This document shows positions 4,575-10,275 of a stretch of 37,722 bases of DNA, piece by piece (the stretch's first letter is position 1; each line of letters starts with the position of its first letter). The notes beneath the pieces were generated by a model, which saw nothing but the letters and a program-made list of their open reading frames with translations, did no database searches and was not told where the DNA came from. Made by a program: the position numbers and the translations under genes. Origin of the DNA: an uncultured Succinatimonas sp. (GTDB lineage: Bacteria > Pseudomonadota > Gammaproteobacteria > Enterobacterales > Succinivibrionaceae); contig ONFP01000013.1 of assembly GCA_900317105.1 (NCBI GenBank), forward strand, positions 1 to 37,722. The letters run 5' to 3'.

Positions 4575-6011
4575 ATGAATCCAATGATTTGGGTAATAGA
4601 CGATGATGCAAGCATTCGTTTTGTTTTCGATAAAGCATTAGATGTTAACAGCATTAATCACCGTTTATTTGAGAATGCAGAAGCAGCTCTTGAAGCAATC
4701 AAAAAGGAAACCCCTGATGTTATTGTCTCAGACATCAAAATGCCAGGTATCGACGGACTTGAGCTCATCAAAGCCGTTCACGAGGTAGACGAGAACATTC
4801 CATTCATTATCATGACTGCTCATTCCGACCTGTCTGCTGCAATTGATGCCTTCAATGAGGGCTCATTTGAATACCTGCCAAAGCCTTTTGATATCGATCA
4901 GGCAGTTGCAGTTATCAGAAGAGCTGCTGTTCACAGAGTTAACATGCTGCAGCTGGTTAGCCAGAGAAACCGCAATACTCTCATGAATGCTCCTGTTGAG
5001 CAGAAAGAGGAAAACGAGATTATCGGTAAATCACCTGCAATGCAGGAAGTCTTCAAGTTTATCGGCCGTGTTTCCAAGACTGATCTTCCTGTACTGATTC
5101 ACGGTGAAATCGGGACCGGCAGAGGACAGGTTGCCAAGGCTCTGCACAACCACGGAGAGAGAACCTCCAAGAACTTTGTGTCTATCAATATCTCTTCCGT
5201 TCCACAGGAAATGGTTAAGTATGAGCTTTTTGGTGATTTGACCAAAGATCCTTCAAACTGTGCAATCGCCAAGGCCGAAGGCGGTACTCTATTCATCAGC
5301 GAAATCAACGATCTGCCAATGGACTGCCAGTCAAGACTGTTAAAGCTCCTGCAGACAGGCGAATACACCAACATCAACAGCACCACAGCAATCAAGTCAA
5401 ACATAAGAGTTATAGCTTCAACCTCTCAGGATTTAGAGGCTAAGATTGCCAAAGGCACATTTAATTCTGATCTGTTCTACAGACTGAACATCATCAATAT
5501 CAATATTCCGCCTCTAAGAGACAGAAATAATGATATTCCTCTGTTAACCAAGCACTTCCTGGCTCAGGCTGCAGCCGAGGGCCATACCGAGCCTAAAAAG
5601 CTGACCTCTGAGGTTCTTGTATTCCTGTGCCGTCTTCCATGGCCTGGCAATGTCCGTCAGCTAAAGAATCTGTGCAAGTACCTGACCATTATGGTTACCG
5701 GACGTGATATTCAGCTGGTTGATCTGCCATCAGAGTTCCTGCATGCCAACAGCAACCAGAACAAGAATACCTCAGGAGGAGCTGTTTCCAAAGAGAATCA
5801 GTCCTGGCAGGATATGCTCAGAAGCTGGGTGGATGCAAAGCTTAAGGCAGGTGAAAGAGATATTCTTAATGAGGCTGTGCCTGAGTTTGAAAAGGTTATG
5901 CTTGAGGCTACCCTGACCTTTACCGGCAACCACAAGCAGGAATCAGCCAAGCTTTTAGGCTGGGGTAGAAATACTCTGACCAGAAAGATTAAGGAACTGA
6001 ACCTTAAATAA
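4575..6011 (+). CDS. glnG: NtrC (GlnG) response regulator with a degenerate AAA+ domain lacking GAFTGA
   Basis: The 478-aa protein has the family's three domains. The receiver (1-120) is intact with Asp53 in SDIKMPG. The C-terminal Fis-type helix-turn-helix (about 450-475) is nearly identical to E. coli NtrC. The central AAA+ domain is not intact. Walker A reads GEIGTGRG (177-184) with Arg183 in place of Lys. After ELFG (217-220) the GAFTGA loop that contacts sigma-54 is missing, and the segment up to GGTLF is 6 residues shorter than in E. coli. Walker B has Ser242 in place of Asp (FISEI), and the first arginine finger is Asn297 while Arg303 remains. The WPGNVRQL motif is kept. It probably binds DNA in a phosphorylation-dependent way but cannot act as a classical sigma-54 activator. 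The reading frame is unbroken, so this is not a simple pseudogene. Confidence 0.92.
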   Translation: MNPMIWVIDDDASIRFVFDKALDVNSINHRLFENAEAALEAIKKETPDVIVSDIKMPGIDGLELIKAVHEVDENIPFIIMTAHSDLSAAIDAFNEGSFEYLPKPFDIDQAVAVIRRAAVHRVNMLQLVSQRNRNTLMNAPVEQKEENEIIGKSPAMQEVFKFIGRVSKTDLPVLIHGEIGTGRGQVAKALHNHGERTSKNFVSINISSVPQEMVKYELFGDLTKDPSNCAIAKAEGGTLFISEINDLPMDCQSRLLKLLQTGEYTNINSTTAIKSNIRVIASTSQDLEAKIAKGTFNSDLFYRLNIININIPPLRDRNNDIPLLTKHFLAQAAAEGHTEPKKLTSEVLVFLCRLPWPGNVRQLKNLCKYLTIMVTGRDIQLVDLPSEFLHANSNQNKNTSGGAVSKENQSWQDMLRSWVDAKLKAGERDILNEAVPEFEKVMLEATLTFTGNHKQESAKLLGWGRNTLTRKIKELNLK

Positions 6012-6044
6012 GCTCAAAGCATTTCATAGTAATGTTTTTTTTAA

Positions 6045-6077
6045 GTGCAGGTCTGCAGATGCAAACCTGCATTTTTC
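6045..6077 (+). terminator. Intrinsic terminator of glnLG
   Basis: TGCAGGT (6046-6052) pairs with ACCTGCA (6065-6071), followed by TTTTTC. It lies 35 bp after the glnG stop codon. Confidence 0.75.
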
Positions 6078-6181
6078 TTATATAAAGAAAAAAATTTCCC
6101 CGTATTTCCTGTCTTTTAAGCTGTTTAGTCTTAATTATTTTTCCTTATTTTCAATAAGTTATTCTTTTATTAGTTAAAAAC

Positions 6182-6210
6182 TATAACTGATAATTAAAAA
6201 TTAGTATTAG
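6182..6210 (+). promoter_or_regulatory. Conserved dyad, copy 1 (upstream of the met leader)
   Basis: TATAA directly followed by CTGATAAT-N8-AGTATTAG. The two 8-bp arms are imperfect inverted repeats (6 of 8 complementary). The same 21 fixed positions recur, with identical spacing, at 10400-10428 upstream of the oxidoreductase operon. Likely an operator or a shared promoter core; the regulator is unknown. Confidence 0.55.
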
Positions 6211-6302
6211 CCAAAAAAATCATTACAGATAACAATAGTCCCATCGAAAGATAACCAACAATAAAAACAGAAATCCTCTAAATAGAAAATTTAAGGAATA
6301 TT

Positions 6303-6434
6303 ATGAAAAATAATCAGTTATACCATCAGCTAGAAGCTGTCTTCAAGGAAGAAGCAGTCTTTGTTTCTGACCTTAGAATTACCTTCAACAAATACTCTGA
6401 CGTCACCTCTGACTGTATGTGTATGTGCATGTAG
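6303..6434 (+). CDS. Leader peptide ending Cys-Met-Cys-Met-Cys-Met (putative attenuator of metQNI)
   Basis: A 43-aa ORF with a good ribosome site (AAGGA, 6 nt before the ATG) whose last six codons are TGT ATG TGT ATG TGC ATG before TAG. It lies 81 bp upstream of metQ on the same strand and has no resemblance to a known functional protein. Alternating Cys and Met codons directly before a methionine-transport operon fit a leader peptide whose translation reports the supply of charged Cys- and Met-tRNA. A hairpin CAGCT-AGA-AGCTG (6327-6339) lies within the ORF, and another, TGTGC-ATGTA-GCACA (6424-6438), overlaps the last codons and the stop, so a ribosome there would melt it. A T8 run at 6474-6481 follows but has no strong stem before it, so the downstream mechanism is open. 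Confidence 0.7.
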   Translation: MKNNQLYHQLEAVFKEEAVFVSDLRITFNKYSDVTSDCMCMCM

Positions 6435-6515
6435 CACAACCGGCAACAGTAAATTTCAAATAGTTAAATTAAGTTTTTTTTCGCAGTTCCATGTGTAACT
6501 GTCAGGAGTTTTATC

Positions 6516-7367
6516 ATGTCAAAATTTTCAAAGAAGAATATATTACTAACTGTTTTTTCAGCATTTTTAGCCTTTTCTCTAACCGCCTGCAACGATGACA
6601 GCAACAAGTCAGCCAAGGCAGATACTGTTCCTGAGCACATCAAAATCGGTGTGGTACCAGGACCATACAAAGATCTGCTAAAGAATCATCTGACCAAGGT
6701 GGTTGAGAGCAGAGGACATAAGCTTGATTTCGTGGAATTCTCAGACTGGGTTCAGCCTGATTCCGCTCTGGATGCAGGAGAAATCGACGCCAATCTGTTC
6801 CAGCATTCAATCTACCTGAAGGCAATTGTAGAAAACCAGGGGCTAAAGCTTGATGAGGTTATCAATGTACCAACCTTAGGCCTGTTCGCCTTCTCAGATA
6901 AGGTTAAATCTCTGGATGACCTGAAAGACGGAGCTTTGGTTGCCCTGCCAAATGATGCGGTAAACCTCTCCCGCGCGCTGAGATTCGCCCGCGATGCCGG
7001 TATTATCACTCTCAAAGCTGATAAGGATGATCTCAAGGCCTCAATAGCTGATATCGACCAGAATCCTAAACACCTGAACTTTGTACCAATGGAAGCAGCT
7101 CAGCTACCTCGTTCTCTGGATTCAACCGATCTGGCCCTGGTACCAGGCAACTATGCCTATGAAGCAAAACTCCCATTTGACAAGGCCCTTGCCAAGGAGA
7201 AGGTTTCAGAGCCAATCAAACTGGTGGTTACCGTACAGAGCGACCGTGTAAATACAGTTGGAGCCTTCTTAAAGGATGCAGTTGCAAGCAGAGAGTTCAC
7301 CTCATCAGTGAATGCAGATCCTCTATACAGAGATTTTGCTAAACCACAGTGGTGGCCTGCAAACTGA
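6516..7367 (+). CDS. metQ: Methionine ABC transporter substrate-binding lipoprotein MetQ
   Basis: Binds methionine in the periplasm and delivers it to MetNI. The 283-aa protein starts with a lipoprotein signal peptide with lipobox Leu-Thr-Ala-Cys, Cys25 being the lipidated residue. The rest matches the NlpA/MetQ family: an IKIGVVPGPYKDLL-type start after the signal, a DANLFQH motif, and a C-terminal tail ending in Lys-Pro-Gln-Trp-Trp. A CAGGAG site precedes the ATG. A short hairpin, CAGTT (6484-6488) with AACTG (6497-6501), lies just before that site and may affect access. The gene is followed by metN and metI with short gaps, and the operon is preceded by the Cys-Met leader peptide. Confidence 0.93.
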   Translation: MSKFSKKNILLTVFSAFLAFSLTACNDDSNKSAKADTVPEHIKIGVVPGPYKDLLKNHLTKVVESRGHKLDFVEFSDWVQPDSALDAGEIDANLFQHSIYLKAIVENQGLKLDEVINVPTLGLFAFSDKVKSLDDLKDGALVALPNDAVNLSRALRFARDAGIITLKADKDDLKASIADIDQNPKHLNFVPMEAAQLPRSLDSTDLALVPGNYAYEAKLPFDKALAKEKVSEPIKLVVTVQSDRVNTVGAFLKDAVASREFTSSVNADPLYRDFAKPQWWPAN

Positions 7368-7401: not shown

Positions 7402-8412
7402 ATGATTAGATTTGAAAACCTAAGTGTTAAGTTCAGAAATGCAGATACAGAATACACAGCTGTTGATAAAGTGAACCTAACCATCAACAAAGGCGAATTC
7501 TTTGGAATAGTAGGCGCCTCTGGAGCAGGTAAGTCAACACTGGTTCGCACAGTAAATCTGCTACAGAAACCAACCTCAGGTAATGTGTATATCAAGGGGA
7601 AGAACATCGTAAACTACAGTGGCGAAAAGCTGCGTAGCCTAAGACAGAATATCGGCATGATCTTTCAGCATTTCAACCTGATATCCAATGCCACTGTCTA
7701 TGACAACATAGCATTTGCCCTTAAGGCTTCTAAAACTCCCGCAAAGGACATTCAGAAAAGAGTACCTGAACTTCTAGAGCTGGTAGGCCTTGCAGATAAG
7801 GCGGATTTATATCCGCCATCATTATCAGGCGGTCAGAAACAGCGTGTGGCAATAGCCCGCGCTCTGGCTAACAATCCGGAGATCCTTCTATGTGATGAGG
7901 CAACTTCAGCCCTCGATCCTGACAATACCAAGGAAGTGATACAGACACTGCGCAACATTAAGAATCACTATCCTATAACCATTCTGTTTATCACCCATCA
8001 GATGGAGGTTGCAAAATCTCTGTTTGACAGAATTGCTGTAATGGAAAAGGGACGTCTTGCTGAGGTTGCTCCTTCCTATACCCTCTTTGCAACACCTCAG
8101 TCAGAGGCTGCTAAAGCTCTTATCAGCAGCGATTACAGAAAAGCGGTACCAAAGAAGGTATTAGAACAGGAAAAAGACCTCTACATGATTACCTATAAAG
8201 AGCAGGGAGCCTTTGATCCGGTAATCTCAGATGTTTCCAGAAAATTCCTGAAAACAGATGTATCGATTATCGAAGGCAACATTGAGTATGTGCAGGATAA
8301 GCCAATCGGCAGACTTCTTATATCCCTGAGATCAAAGGATGATAAGGACAGGGAAGAGGTAATCAGCTACCTTAAGCAGAAAACCTTTATAACCAGATTG
8401 AATGCGGAGTAA
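7402..8412 (+). CDS. metN: Methionine ABC transporter ATP-binding protein MetN
   Basis: Energises methionine uptake at the inner membrane. The 336-aa protein has the Walker A GASGAGKST (38-46), the ABC signature LSGGQKQR (141-148), Walker B ILLCDE (161-166) and the switch His199. Residues from about 260 to the end form the NIL (ACT-like) regulatory domain, which in E. coli MetN binds methionine and inhibits transport when the internal pool is high. So post-translational feedback is likely in addition to the leader. It lies 34 bp after metQ and 3 bp before metI. Confidence 0.95.
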   Translation: MIRFENLSVKFRNADTEYTAVDKVNLTINKGEFFGIVGASGAGKSTLVRTVNLLQKPTSGNVYIKGKNIVNYSGEKLRSLRQNIGMIFQHFNLISNATVYDNIAFALKASKTPAKDIQKRVPELLELVGLADKADLYPPSLSGGQKQRVAIARALANNPEILLCDEATSALDPDNTKEVIQTLRNIKNHYPITILFITHQMEVAKSLFDRIAVMEKGRLAEVAPSYTLFATPQSEAAKALISSDYRKAVPKKVLEQEKDLYMITYKEQGAFDPVISDVSRKFLKTDVSIIEGNIEYVQDKPIGRLLISLRSKDDKDREEVISYLKQKTFITRLNAE

Positions 8413-8415
8413 TAA

Positions 8416-9093
8416 ATGAACAGCGAACTAATAGAATCAACAATAAATATTCTGCAGAATGAATTTGTGAAATCCATCTATGAAACTGCTCTGATGATTG
8501 GAATTTCATTTTCACTGAGTCTGATTTTCGGTCTGACTTTAGGTTTTATTCTGTATCTGACCTCTGGTAAAACCTTTTTTGAAAAAACCATAAGTCTTAA
8601 TAAGACGGTATCAGCATTTATCAATATCATCCGCTCCATACCATTTATTATTCTGGTGGTTTTCTCTCTGCCTTTAACCTTTATTCTTGTCGGCACCAAA
8701 ATAGGACCTATAGCAGCTTCAGTACCACTTTCTATTGCAGCTATAGTATTCTTTGCAAGACTGGTTGAAAGTGCCTTAAAAGAGGTTGATGCAGGAGTCA
8801 TAGAGGCTGCAATAGCCACCGGCGCCTCACATTTTCTAATCATAAAGAATGTGCTTCTGGTTGAAGCGGCACCAGCAATTGTAAGAGGTATTACCATTAC
8901 CTTCATCAATCTAATCGGCTGTTCAGCAATGGCCGGCATGGTTGGAGGCGGCGGCATCGGCAACCTGGCTATACAGTACGGCTACTACCGCTATGAAACC
9001 GGTGTTATGATTTTTACCATCGTGGTACTGGTTGTAATCGTACAGCTTGCCCAGTTAACCGGTGACAGAATTGCAAAACTGCTGACCCACTAA
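8416..9093 (+). CDS. metI: Methionine ABC transporter permease MetI
   Basis: Inner-membrane channel subunit, 225 aa, with about five hydrophobic helices. The EAA loop that docks onto MetN is seen as EAAIATGASH at 130-139, and the segment CSAMAGMVGGGGIGNLA near the C-terminus is typical of MetI. It follows metN by 3 bp and precedes the aminotransferase by 21 bp, so all four genes are very probably one transcript. Confidence 0.95.
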   Translation: MNSELIESTINILQNEFVKSIYETALMIGISFSLSLIFGLTLGFILYLTSGKTFFEKTISLNKTVSAFINIIRSIPFIILVVFSLPLTFILVGTKIGPIAASVPLSIAAIVFFARLVESALKEVDAGVIEAAIATGASHFLIIKNVLLVEAAPAIVRGITITFINLIGCSAMAGMVGGGGIGNLAIQYGYYRYETGVMIFTIVVLVVIVQLAQLTGDRIAKLLTH

Positions 9094-9114: not shown

Positions 9115-10275
9115 ATGATTACTCTAAGCGAAAGAACAAAATATTTTACTGATTCGGTCATCCGCCGTATGACCAGAATCTGTAACGGCTGCGGCGCAAT
9201 CAATCTGTCTCAGGGCTTTCCTGACAATCCGCCGCCATTTGAAATGACCAAGAGTCTTTCAGAGATTGCTCTTTCAGGTCCTCATCAGTATTCCATTACC
9301 TTCGGTGCACAGGATACCAGAGAGGCGCTCAGCGCTAAAATTGAGCACTTCTCAGGTATCCGCTACAATCCTGATACCGAACTGTGTATTACCTGCGGCG
9401 GTACCGAAGCCATGATGAGTGCCGTCATGGCTACCTTAAATCCAGGAGATAAGATAGCCATATTCTCTCCTTTCTACGAGAACTACGGTGCTGATGCCAT
9501 TCTCTGCGGTGCAGAACCAATCTATGTACCGCTTCATACGCCGGATTTCTCTTTTGACGAGAAGGAGCTTGAAAAAGCTTTCGCACAGGGAGCCAAAGCA
9601 CTGATCCTCTGTAACCCTTCAAACCCAAGCGGCAAAGTCTTTACCCGAGAAGAGCTTTTAACCATCGCTACTCTTGTTGAAAAATACAATGCCTTTGTAA
9701 TTACCGATGAGGTTTATGAGCACATTATCTTTGAGCCTTACCAGCATACCTACTTTGCCTCTTTAGATGGAATGAGAGAGAGAACCATTATGTGCAACTC
9801 CCTCTCTAAAACCTACTCCATTACAGGCTGGAGATTAGGTTATGTTGCAGCGCCTCCTGAGGTTATGGACAGAATCCGCAAGGTACATGACTTTTTAACT
9901 GTTGGTGCAGCAGCCCCTCTGCAGAAGGCTATTATTCAGGGACTGAAACTCCCTGATTCCTACTATCAGGATGTAAGAGCGCTCTTTACCCACAGAAAGA
10001 ATCTTTTCTGTGGTGGACTAAAAAAACTTAATCTTAATTTCTATGAGCCTCAGGGAACCTATTTTGTTCTGGTGGATATCAGCTCCTTTGGCTATCATGA
10101 TGACTATGAATTCTGCCTTGATCTGGCAAACAAGATTAAAGTTGGAGCAGTACCAGGATCTTCTTTCTTCAAGGAAAAGGAAAACCGCTATATAAGACTG
10201 CACTTTGCCAAATCCGATGAGGTCTTAAACAGTGCACTGAAGAATCTTGAGAACATATTTGCACTGAAAAAATAG
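9115..10275 (+). CDS. PLP-dependent class I aminotransferase, probably methionine/aromatic type
   Basis: Transfers the amino group between an amino acid and a 2-oxoacid in the cytoplasm. The 386-aa protein has the fold-type I motifs: NPSNPSG (167-173), TDEVYEH with Asp198, the PLP lysine Lys232 in SLSKTYSITGWR, and a C-terminal RLHF arginine that binds the substrate carboxylate. It resembles the branch that includes YbdL-like methionine aminotransferase and glutamine transaminase K. Its place at the end of metQNI favours methionine or its oxoacid KMBA as substrate. An alternative is an aromatic or aspartate aminotransferase supplying the oxoacid reductase operon next door. The exact substrate is uncertain. 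Confidence 0.8.
   Translation: MITLSERTKYFTDSVIRRMTRICNGCGAINLSQGFPDNPPPFEMTKSLSEIALSGPHQYSITFGAQDTREALSAKIEHFSGIRYNPDTELCITCGGTEAMMSAVMATLNPGDKIAIFSPFYENYGADAILCGAEPIYVPLHTPDFSFDEKELEKAFAQGAKALILCNPSNPSGKVFTREELLTIATLVEKYNAFVITDEVYEHIIFEPYQHTYFASLDGMRERTIMCNSLSKTYSITGWRLGYVAAPPEVMDRIRKVHDFLTVGAAAPLQKAIIQGLKLPDSYYQDVRALFTHRKNLFCGGLKKLNLNFYEPQGTYFVLVDISSFGYHDDYEFCLDLANKIKVGAVPGSSFFKEKENRYIRLHFAKSDEVLNSALKNLENIFALKK

Follow-up and report, generated by a model that had tools for sequence, protein, structure and literature searches.

How does an uncultured Succinatimonas sp. (Succinivibrionaceae), a gut/rumen bacterium, control its methionine transporter operon metQNI, and what is the role of a tiny open reading frame (ORF) that lies just before it? 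The locus is located in the window analysed here, that is, the whole 37,722-nucleotide (nt) stretch of contig ONFP01000013.1 (contig C78 in our numbering, from a 2.79 Mb assembly). An earlier note on this DNA had described a 43-codon ORF with a strong ribosome site that ends in three Cys-Met pairs ahead of metQNI, and this description was borne out: the ORF is preceded by AAGGA, occupies 6303-6434, and stops 81 nt before metQ. Its sequence features indicate that the leader is real and very probably regulatory, and the tiny gene probably lets the cell sense a shortage of Met or Cys. The full reading, which we favour with moderate confidence, is that the ORF encodes a regulatory leader peptide of metQNI that gauges charged Met-tRNA and Cys-tRNA, with termination by Rho as the output in the window's type of leader.

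The leader ORF (6303..6434, plus strand, ATG to TAG) encodes 43 amino acids, MKNNQLYHQLEAVFKEEAVFVSDLRITFNKYSDVTSDCMCMCM. The last six codons and the stop, TGT ATG TGT ATG TGC ATG TAG, lie at 6414-6434. A search for this 21-nt tail, allowing up to three mismatches, matched a single site in the window and none in 100 dinucleotide shuffles. The features of the leader and the region up to metQ are as follows.

6293..6297, plus strand: Shine-Dalgarno-like AAGGA of the leader ORF, 5 bases 5' of the ATG; AAGGAATATTATG is invariant in 5/5 orthologs.
6303..6434, plus strand: 43-codon leader ORF with the CMCMCM end and TAG stop, based on the ORF call, the substitution pattern (pN/pS) and indels of whole codons.
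6371..6448, plus strand: C-over-G stretch of 78 nt (C 27%, G 17%), a weak candidate resembling a Rho utilization (rut) site.
6414..6431, plus strand: six putative regulatory codons TGT ATG TGT ATG TGC ATG, three Cys-Met pairs; two orthologs have four pairs.
6424..6438, plus strand: hairpin TGTGC-ATGTA-GCACA, 15 nt, spanning the final Cys codon, the final Met codon and the stop.
6435..6515, plus strand: spacer between leader and metQ, 81 nt, with a run of eight T at 6474-6481; no intrinsic terminator was found in it.
6503..6518, plus strand: metQ ribosome site CAGGAG and start codon; GGAGTTTTAT.ATG is conserved.

The window's upstream region was aligned with those of four orthologs, which makes five sequences in all. 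The leader is kept in 5/5 of these closest orthologs, the stop is invariant, and the tails contain 3, 4, 4, 3, and 3 Cys-Met pairs. The ratio of nonsynonymous to synonymous differences (pN/pS) was 0.19-0.40 in 9/10 ortholog pairs and 0.63 in the tenth, which is the closest pair and has a single synonymous change. The N-terminal halves differ by whole-codon indels, and the spacer beyond the 3' arm of the hairpin is variable. On these alignments, the leader ORF is conserved and coding. A small protein with a function of its own, positioned before metQ by chance, would likewise show the pN/pS below 1 that extends across the whole ORF; this explanation is improbable, given an N-terminal half that tolerates a 6-codon indel and the leaders of other metQ-type genes, which have only the Met/Cys tail in common and no obvious N-terminal likeness.

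As far as sequence can tell, the window's leader is one of a family-wide set of Met/Cys leaders. When the best metQ locus of each genome was taken (20 loci with at least 46% identity, the window's included), leaders with Met codons at or near the end, usually together with Cys, were found at 14/20 loci in three genera. Their tails include, directly before the stop, CLSMSCLCMRMTF, MCCMRSCMRMPR, CMCLCMRMPL, MAMSMRMSH, and CSMRMPVLA. In genus g2, a similar ORF was present at 3/7 loci, 470-610 nt upstream, with the tails CMRMPVMA, MPAMA, and TPAMA. Genomes of the genus (19) were also searched for Cys-Met-Cys-Met codons blind to the downstream gene; the 21 places found consist of 11 inside other genes and 10 leaders, of which one precedes a porin gene and nine precede MetQ/MetN-type genes. 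When 86 of 87 further MetQ/NlpA stretches were scanned upstream of the gene (L280 was left out), more leaders were found, among them a second leader in the window's own genome (L195), which ends in SSMCTCRSCTLMCM, precedes another MetQ-type gene and has homologs in three relatives. Upstream of MetQ/NlpA genes, ORFs with at least five Met plus Cys in 10 codons occurred in 17/106 sense regions, 0/106 antisense regions, and 9/2120 resampled regions (the 106 regions leave out L050, L147, L150, L154, L158, L162, L171, L173, and L192, and the contig-edge metQ fragment G003:C241 lies outside the scan). In a metQ-profile set of 80 named loci, over-threshold ORFs stood at 10/80, nine of Succinivibrionaceae type and one, L059, chance-like; the known weak leaders L045, L047, and L048 fall under the threshold. 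A working set of 32 leaders has 127 Met and 84 Cys among 433 tail codons, a composition that is not independent evidence because the leaders were chosen partly by their Met/Cys content.

Several observations weigh against such a general association. No leader was found at 6/20 best-per-genome metQ loci (L010, L012, L013, L014, L022, and L023) or, within the same genomes, at four second copies (L214-L217, at least 52% identity), and L017 and L020 were accepted as leaders by position and tail motif although they are Met-poor. The 17 strong sense regions include close orthologs, and at a looser threshold of at least four Met plus Cys the counts were 23/106 sense, 5/106 antisense, and 64/2120 resampled. 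Constraint is weaker on the L195-type second leader (C79 type), with pN/pS of 0.42-0.77 in 6 pairs. The earlier note would give up its reading if close relatives had lost the Cys-Met codons but kept the transporter. The leaderless loci named above bear on this condition, but they belong to species more remote than the five closest orthologs, all of which keep the leader.

These data also bear on chance or repeat slippage, in which the tail would be a functionless expansion of the TGTATG hexamer. The TGTATG copy number is 3 or 4 among the orthologs, and in another genome (L300, G067:C8) a TGTATG microsatellite of several copies lies in an ORF away from met genes. The conservation of the leader already argues against this account, and with strong Met/Cys ORFs on the sense strand only (17/106 versus 0/106), the frame kept, and other codon arrangements recurring before MetQ-type genes, also together with attenuators, it is highly improbable. 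The proposal that alternating codons let one leader report both sulfur amino acids is plausible. Both codons recur in the leaders, but not every leader has Cys: it is absent from the L020 leader, and the L015 leader contains a single Cys, outside the Met cluster.

How the codons could act on the operon is seen best in eight leaders, called type A (L150, L154, L162, L192, L246, L268, L274, and L276), in which the Met/Cys codons lie inside the ORF. The class was drawn by terminator presence, and the terminators (8/8) have -11 to -25 kcal/mol and a T tract, 16-34 nt past the leader stop. Antiterminator folding was carried out for seven of them, not L192, with the fold limited to RNA still in front of the ribosome, as far as the terminator 5' arm. 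With the ribosome on the Met/Cys codons, the mean pairing probability of the 5' arm was 0.56-0.89, as against 0.03-0.36 with the ribosome at the stop (7/7); the drop comes just past the codons in L150, L154, L162, L268, L274, and L276; in L246 it is ragged. When the intervening segment was shuffled, at most 4/100 shuffles reached the observed value in L150, L154, and L276. Type A leaders are thus predicted to work by classical ribosome-mediated attenuation, here with Met/Cys codons, their output being a switch between antiterminator and intrinsic terminator.

This prediction has its weak points. The shuffles reached the observed value 8, 11, 12, and 37 times per 100 in L268, L274, L162, and L246, respectively; the fall in pairing at the stop is partly due to less RNA being left to pair; and the effect of ribosome position became much weaker when the upstream RNA was included in the fold. 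At equilibrium, the terminator is the preferred fold of nearly all the full-length RNAs; as in known attenuators, the switch would therefore depend on the order of synthesis. The two classes were set after the sequences had been viewed, and L192 was counted in the other class until its terminator was found. L192 (G068, minus strand) belongs to another genus; its leader, MNKATISAKTYAKSDLKDQLSFAFFMMMGMCMMMYVSSAFLTS, precedes a MetQ-type gene and has seven Met in ten codons, followed by the intrinsic terminator.

The other 24 leaders, the window's among them, form type B, in which the Met/Cys codons adjoin the stop or lie close to it. No terminator-like site was found within 200 nt in 22/24 of them, nor within 200 nt past the leader stop in 5/5 of the closest orthologs. 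In the window itself, no intrinsic terminator was found in 6435-6515, and the only terminator-like site in 6000-6700 lies 5' of the leader at 6054-6071. Premature transcript ends near 6440-6482, which had been suggested as a check, are consequently not predicted to be driven by the hairpin. The C excess over G was scored on the 60 nt before the codons, as a percentile within each locus. The median percentile was 0.955 in type B (24 loci) and 0.255 in type A (8 loci); when each leader family was represented by a single hand-picked member (12 B versus 8 A), p was 0.002, and 0.004 for the least favourable choice. The percentile of the window leader is 0.82, and most related terminator-less leaders have a stronger stretch than the window. 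The genome encodes Rho factor (708 bits). The terminator-less leaders carry a C-over-G stretch before the codons, which points to Rho as the most likely output step, in the window copy as well. Against this stand the modest excess in the window, whose 78-nt peak is equalled or exceeded by 10.7% of stretches of that length in the 37.7 kb, the type B leader L009 at only the 13th percentile, and weak terminator-like hairpins in the type B leaders L021 and L147 (-6.4 and -8.0).

The leader could act in a different way, by translational attenuation, in which the leader end pairs with the metQ ribosome site and a stalled ribosome frees the site. By eye, ACCTCTGAC (6405-6413) is complementary to GTCAGGAGT (6501-6509) at 8/9 positions. 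The pairing of leader tail and ribosome site was calculated for 20 of the 25 loci then classed as type B; in four of the 20 (L005, L007, L017, and L018) it beats all but 0-4 of 40 shuffles, and among these L005 is an ortholog very close to the window leader. In the window, however, the pairing probability is 0.07 and was reached by 21/40 shuffles, and there was no clear effect in 16/20 loci. When a ribosome footprint was placed at each codon of 14 leaders, accessibility of the ribosome site was not consistently raised at the Met/Cys codons, and the spacer length varies from 67 to 173 nt across these leaders. Translational attenuation is therefore considered unlikely. With neither an intrinsic terminator after the window's leader nor support for a masked metQ ribosome site, the output step of this copy is one that we infer.

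In the favoured mechanism, translation of the leader would gauge the supply of charged Met-tRNA and Cys-tRNA. If Met or Cys ran short, the ribosome would slow on the CMCMCM codons beside the stop and the operon would be expressed; if both were plentiful, the ribosome would finish and leave, and expression would be cut back. In type B leaders this output would be Rho-dependent termination in the region between leader and metQ, and a stalled ribosome, with the queue behind it, would cover the C-rich, G-poor stretch just upstream and so prevent Rho from acting. The ORF, its codons, their conservation, the coding constraint, the recurrence before MetQ-type genes, the type A anatomy, and the finding of no MetJ come from sequence; stalling when Met or Cys is scarce, a metQ response of any kind, and termination by Rho are what we infer. 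An objection of principle is that Met starvation should slow initiation everywhere, which makes Met codons an awkward sensor. A Met-reading attenuator is unexpected because Met is the initiator and a starved cell must start the leader in order to stall on Met.

Peptide attenuators are textbook systems for Trp, His, Phe, Thr, Leu, and Ile/Val, and the TnaC leader is linked to Rho. The present leaders resemble the trp, his, leu, and thr attenuators in having a short leader ORF with clustered cognate codons before an operon, and type A shares the terminator and predicted antiterminator with the trp/his type; the differences are the Met/Cys codons, the uptake target, and the absence of a terminator from the window copy. 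The mechanism itself is of a known kind. Among the papers listed by searches of an open-access collection, none was on a Met-codon leader. Mycobacterial Cys leaders are described as having the codons near the stop and no terminators, and Rho was suggested, with pyrimidine motifs as proposed Rho sites (PMC1262725); later work on them (Canestrari 2020) is cited elsewhere as translation attenuation (PMC13236596). The likeness to the window's leader is the run of regulatory codons near the stop with no terminator found (PMC1262725), whereas the mycobacterial leaders use Cys only, precede cysteine biosynthesis genes and occur in Actinobacteria.

The leader of CruR (DUF2946) is described as Rho-dependent, with a stalled ribosome keeping Rho away (PMC9426467). 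The likeness proposed for CruR and TnaC is a ribosome stalled late in the leader that keeps Rho off a C-over-G stretch; they differ in sensing copper and free Trp, respectively, via an arrest peptide, and such a motif was not seen here. CruR is the closest working model. It also suggests a rival, a metal- or redox-sensing nascent peptide, with sensing by the peptide itself instead of through tRNA charging: CMCMCM contains many soft-metal ligands, Cys and Met being copper ligands, and the Rho-dependent CruR leader is reported to have a CXXC motif (PMC9426467). This is rather improbable, however. Codon type alone is conserved, with varying order and spacing (CMCMCM, MMMGMCMMM, MSMMP, MAMSMRM, and CMRMP); 9/10 codon-pattern leaders precede MetQ/MetN-type genes; the type A codons sit just ahead of the antiterminator; and the RAPP arrest motif was not seen in the leaders read.

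Other known systems control the same kind of genes by other routes. T-box elements before methionine transporters in Firmicutes (PMC2965389) likewise read tRNA charging ahead of a methionine transporter gene, but the RNA binds tRNA directly and there is no leader peptide; no Rfam model matches the window at gathering score. For Proteobacteria, methionine regulation by MetJ, MetR, SahR, S-adenosylmethionine (SAM) and S-adenosylhomocysteine (SAH) riboswitches, and a predicted metXZ RNA element was described in a comparative study, the available text of which records MetJ in 6/6 Aeromonadales/Psychromonadaceae genomes, leaves Succinivibrio unmentioned and does not contain the stem 'attenuat' (PMC4239095). 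These regulators share the kind of target genes with the leaders. The statement of the earlier note that MetJ and SAM riboswitches are not seen here extends to the family: MetJ was found in 0/56 family genomes (the E. coli control was positive), and a SAM-I riboswitch in 1/56 under stricter filters, which is not the window's genome; MetR and the other elements were not searched for genome-wide. The sole SAM-I match (L142, G035:C157:2704-2790) lies in an assembly that is 84% complete and may be due to contamination or transfer.

The hairpin over the last codons, also described earlier, is present but borderline. An equally good Watson-Crick hairpin occurred in 27/500 shuffles of 6408-6446; in a separate shuffle test, another hairpin with G-T pairs was best at the leader end and was reached in 55/300 shuffles. 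The fold of the whole region 6280-6540 is not unusual (z -1.34). The 3' arm GCACA, directly 3' of the stop, is invariant in the five orthologs, and the bases beyond it diverge. A comparable hairpin with covariation is found in the CGAATG leader group, in which CGAATG and a hairpin over the last codons are common to eight leaders; in a ninth, L011, CGAATG lies further from the stop. In the 8-row alignment, where three rows carry N placed in the loop, two of the five base pairs have changes in both partners, and pairing holds in 80% of cells, compared with 30-40% when slid. The Arg codon CGA before the last Met is invariant in the eight tails L009 and L015-L021 (L050 has CGT) and may be a slow codon or part of an RNA motif. 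An RNA model of this tail gave 28 matches up to E 1 in the 56 family genomes; the seven below E 0.03 are all known metQ leaders, and an eighth known leader, L126 (G005), matches at E 0.25. Among the 20 other loci, 16 were checked (the near-identical weak matches L137, L139, L140, and L141 in G014 were left out): eight have CGAATG nearby, none of these a met-gene leader, and eight do not have it.

The strict MCMCM pattern, sought in 394 genomes sampled from the order, was found in 15 genomes, 8 of them outside the family; the eight loci outside the family were rejected as leaders, being other frames of genes or unrelated places. Some family leaders have unusual neighbours. L147 (G006:C4, minus strand) ends near 1515 in SSCRCLLSCMRMCMCM, resembles the metQ leader of the same genome and precedes a Gram-negative porin ORF (1764-2843, PF00267) instead of a MetQ gene; the porin may be under the same control as metQ. 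L158 (G006:C70, minus strand) ends in LSLCMCMPMCMR between metI-like and NlpA/MetQ genes, so that the binding protein alone may be controlled. Succinivibrio genomes have up to nine MetQ/NlpA-type matches each, with leaders at only some of them.

The transcript that approaches the window's leader from upstream probably stops at 6043-6074, where there is an inverted repeat with a T tract. A separate promoter is therefore expected for the leader; a consensus promoter scan of 6072-6290 found none. The genes downstream are as follows.

6516..7367, plus strand: metQ-like substrate-binding lipoprotein (PF03180 NlpA lipoprotein, 202.9 bits; resembles solved structures of MetQ/NlpA type).
7402..8412, plus strand: metN-like ATPase (TIGR02314, E 4.1e-94, under the cut-off).
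8416..9093, plus strand: metI-like permease (PRK10782, 194 bits, cut-off 212).
9115..10275, plus strand: pyridoxal phosphate (PLP) aminotransferase, methionine aminotransferase-like (PRK09082 third best, 319 bits, cut-off 420), probably in the same operon as metQNI.

Against the MetQ/NlpA NCBIfam models, metQ reaches E 1.4e-43, under the curated cut-offs; as all four genes score under such cut-offs, homology is the sole basis for the transporter substrate. The window metQ shares 95-96% identity with the metQ of Succinivibrio dextrinosolvens DSM 3072 and ACV-10 and with that of a yak-rumen Succinivibrio.

Among the 19 genus genomes, full-length MetE was found over the cut-off in 3/19, the window's genome not among them, and MetH in 0/19, some of the assemblies being incomplete. 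The window's genome has a 373-amino-acid MetE-like protein (L310, G000:C104), and proteins of about 373 amino acids resembling part of MetE (L304-L315) are present in genomes in which full-length MetE and MetH were not found. A scan of 15 MetE-like loci gave one Met-rich ORF without Cys, 280-400 nt 5' of the MetE-like gene L313. These species may depend on methionine uptake.

Tentatively, we propose that Succinivibrionaceae, which are MetJ-less and nearly SAM-I-less, run methionine uptake by Met/Cys leaders that would be the first methionine-reading attenuators, one leader family with either intrinsic or Rho output, in which the number of Cys-Met pairs, changing by hexamer slippage, tunes the response. 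The occurrence of types A and B within one genus allows a direct comparison of intrinsic and Rho output behind the same sensor. The leaders offer a testable account of the control of sulfur amino-acid uptake in a family in which no MetJ was found, and where full-length MetE and MetH are not recognisable, control of uptake may be the main control of methionine.
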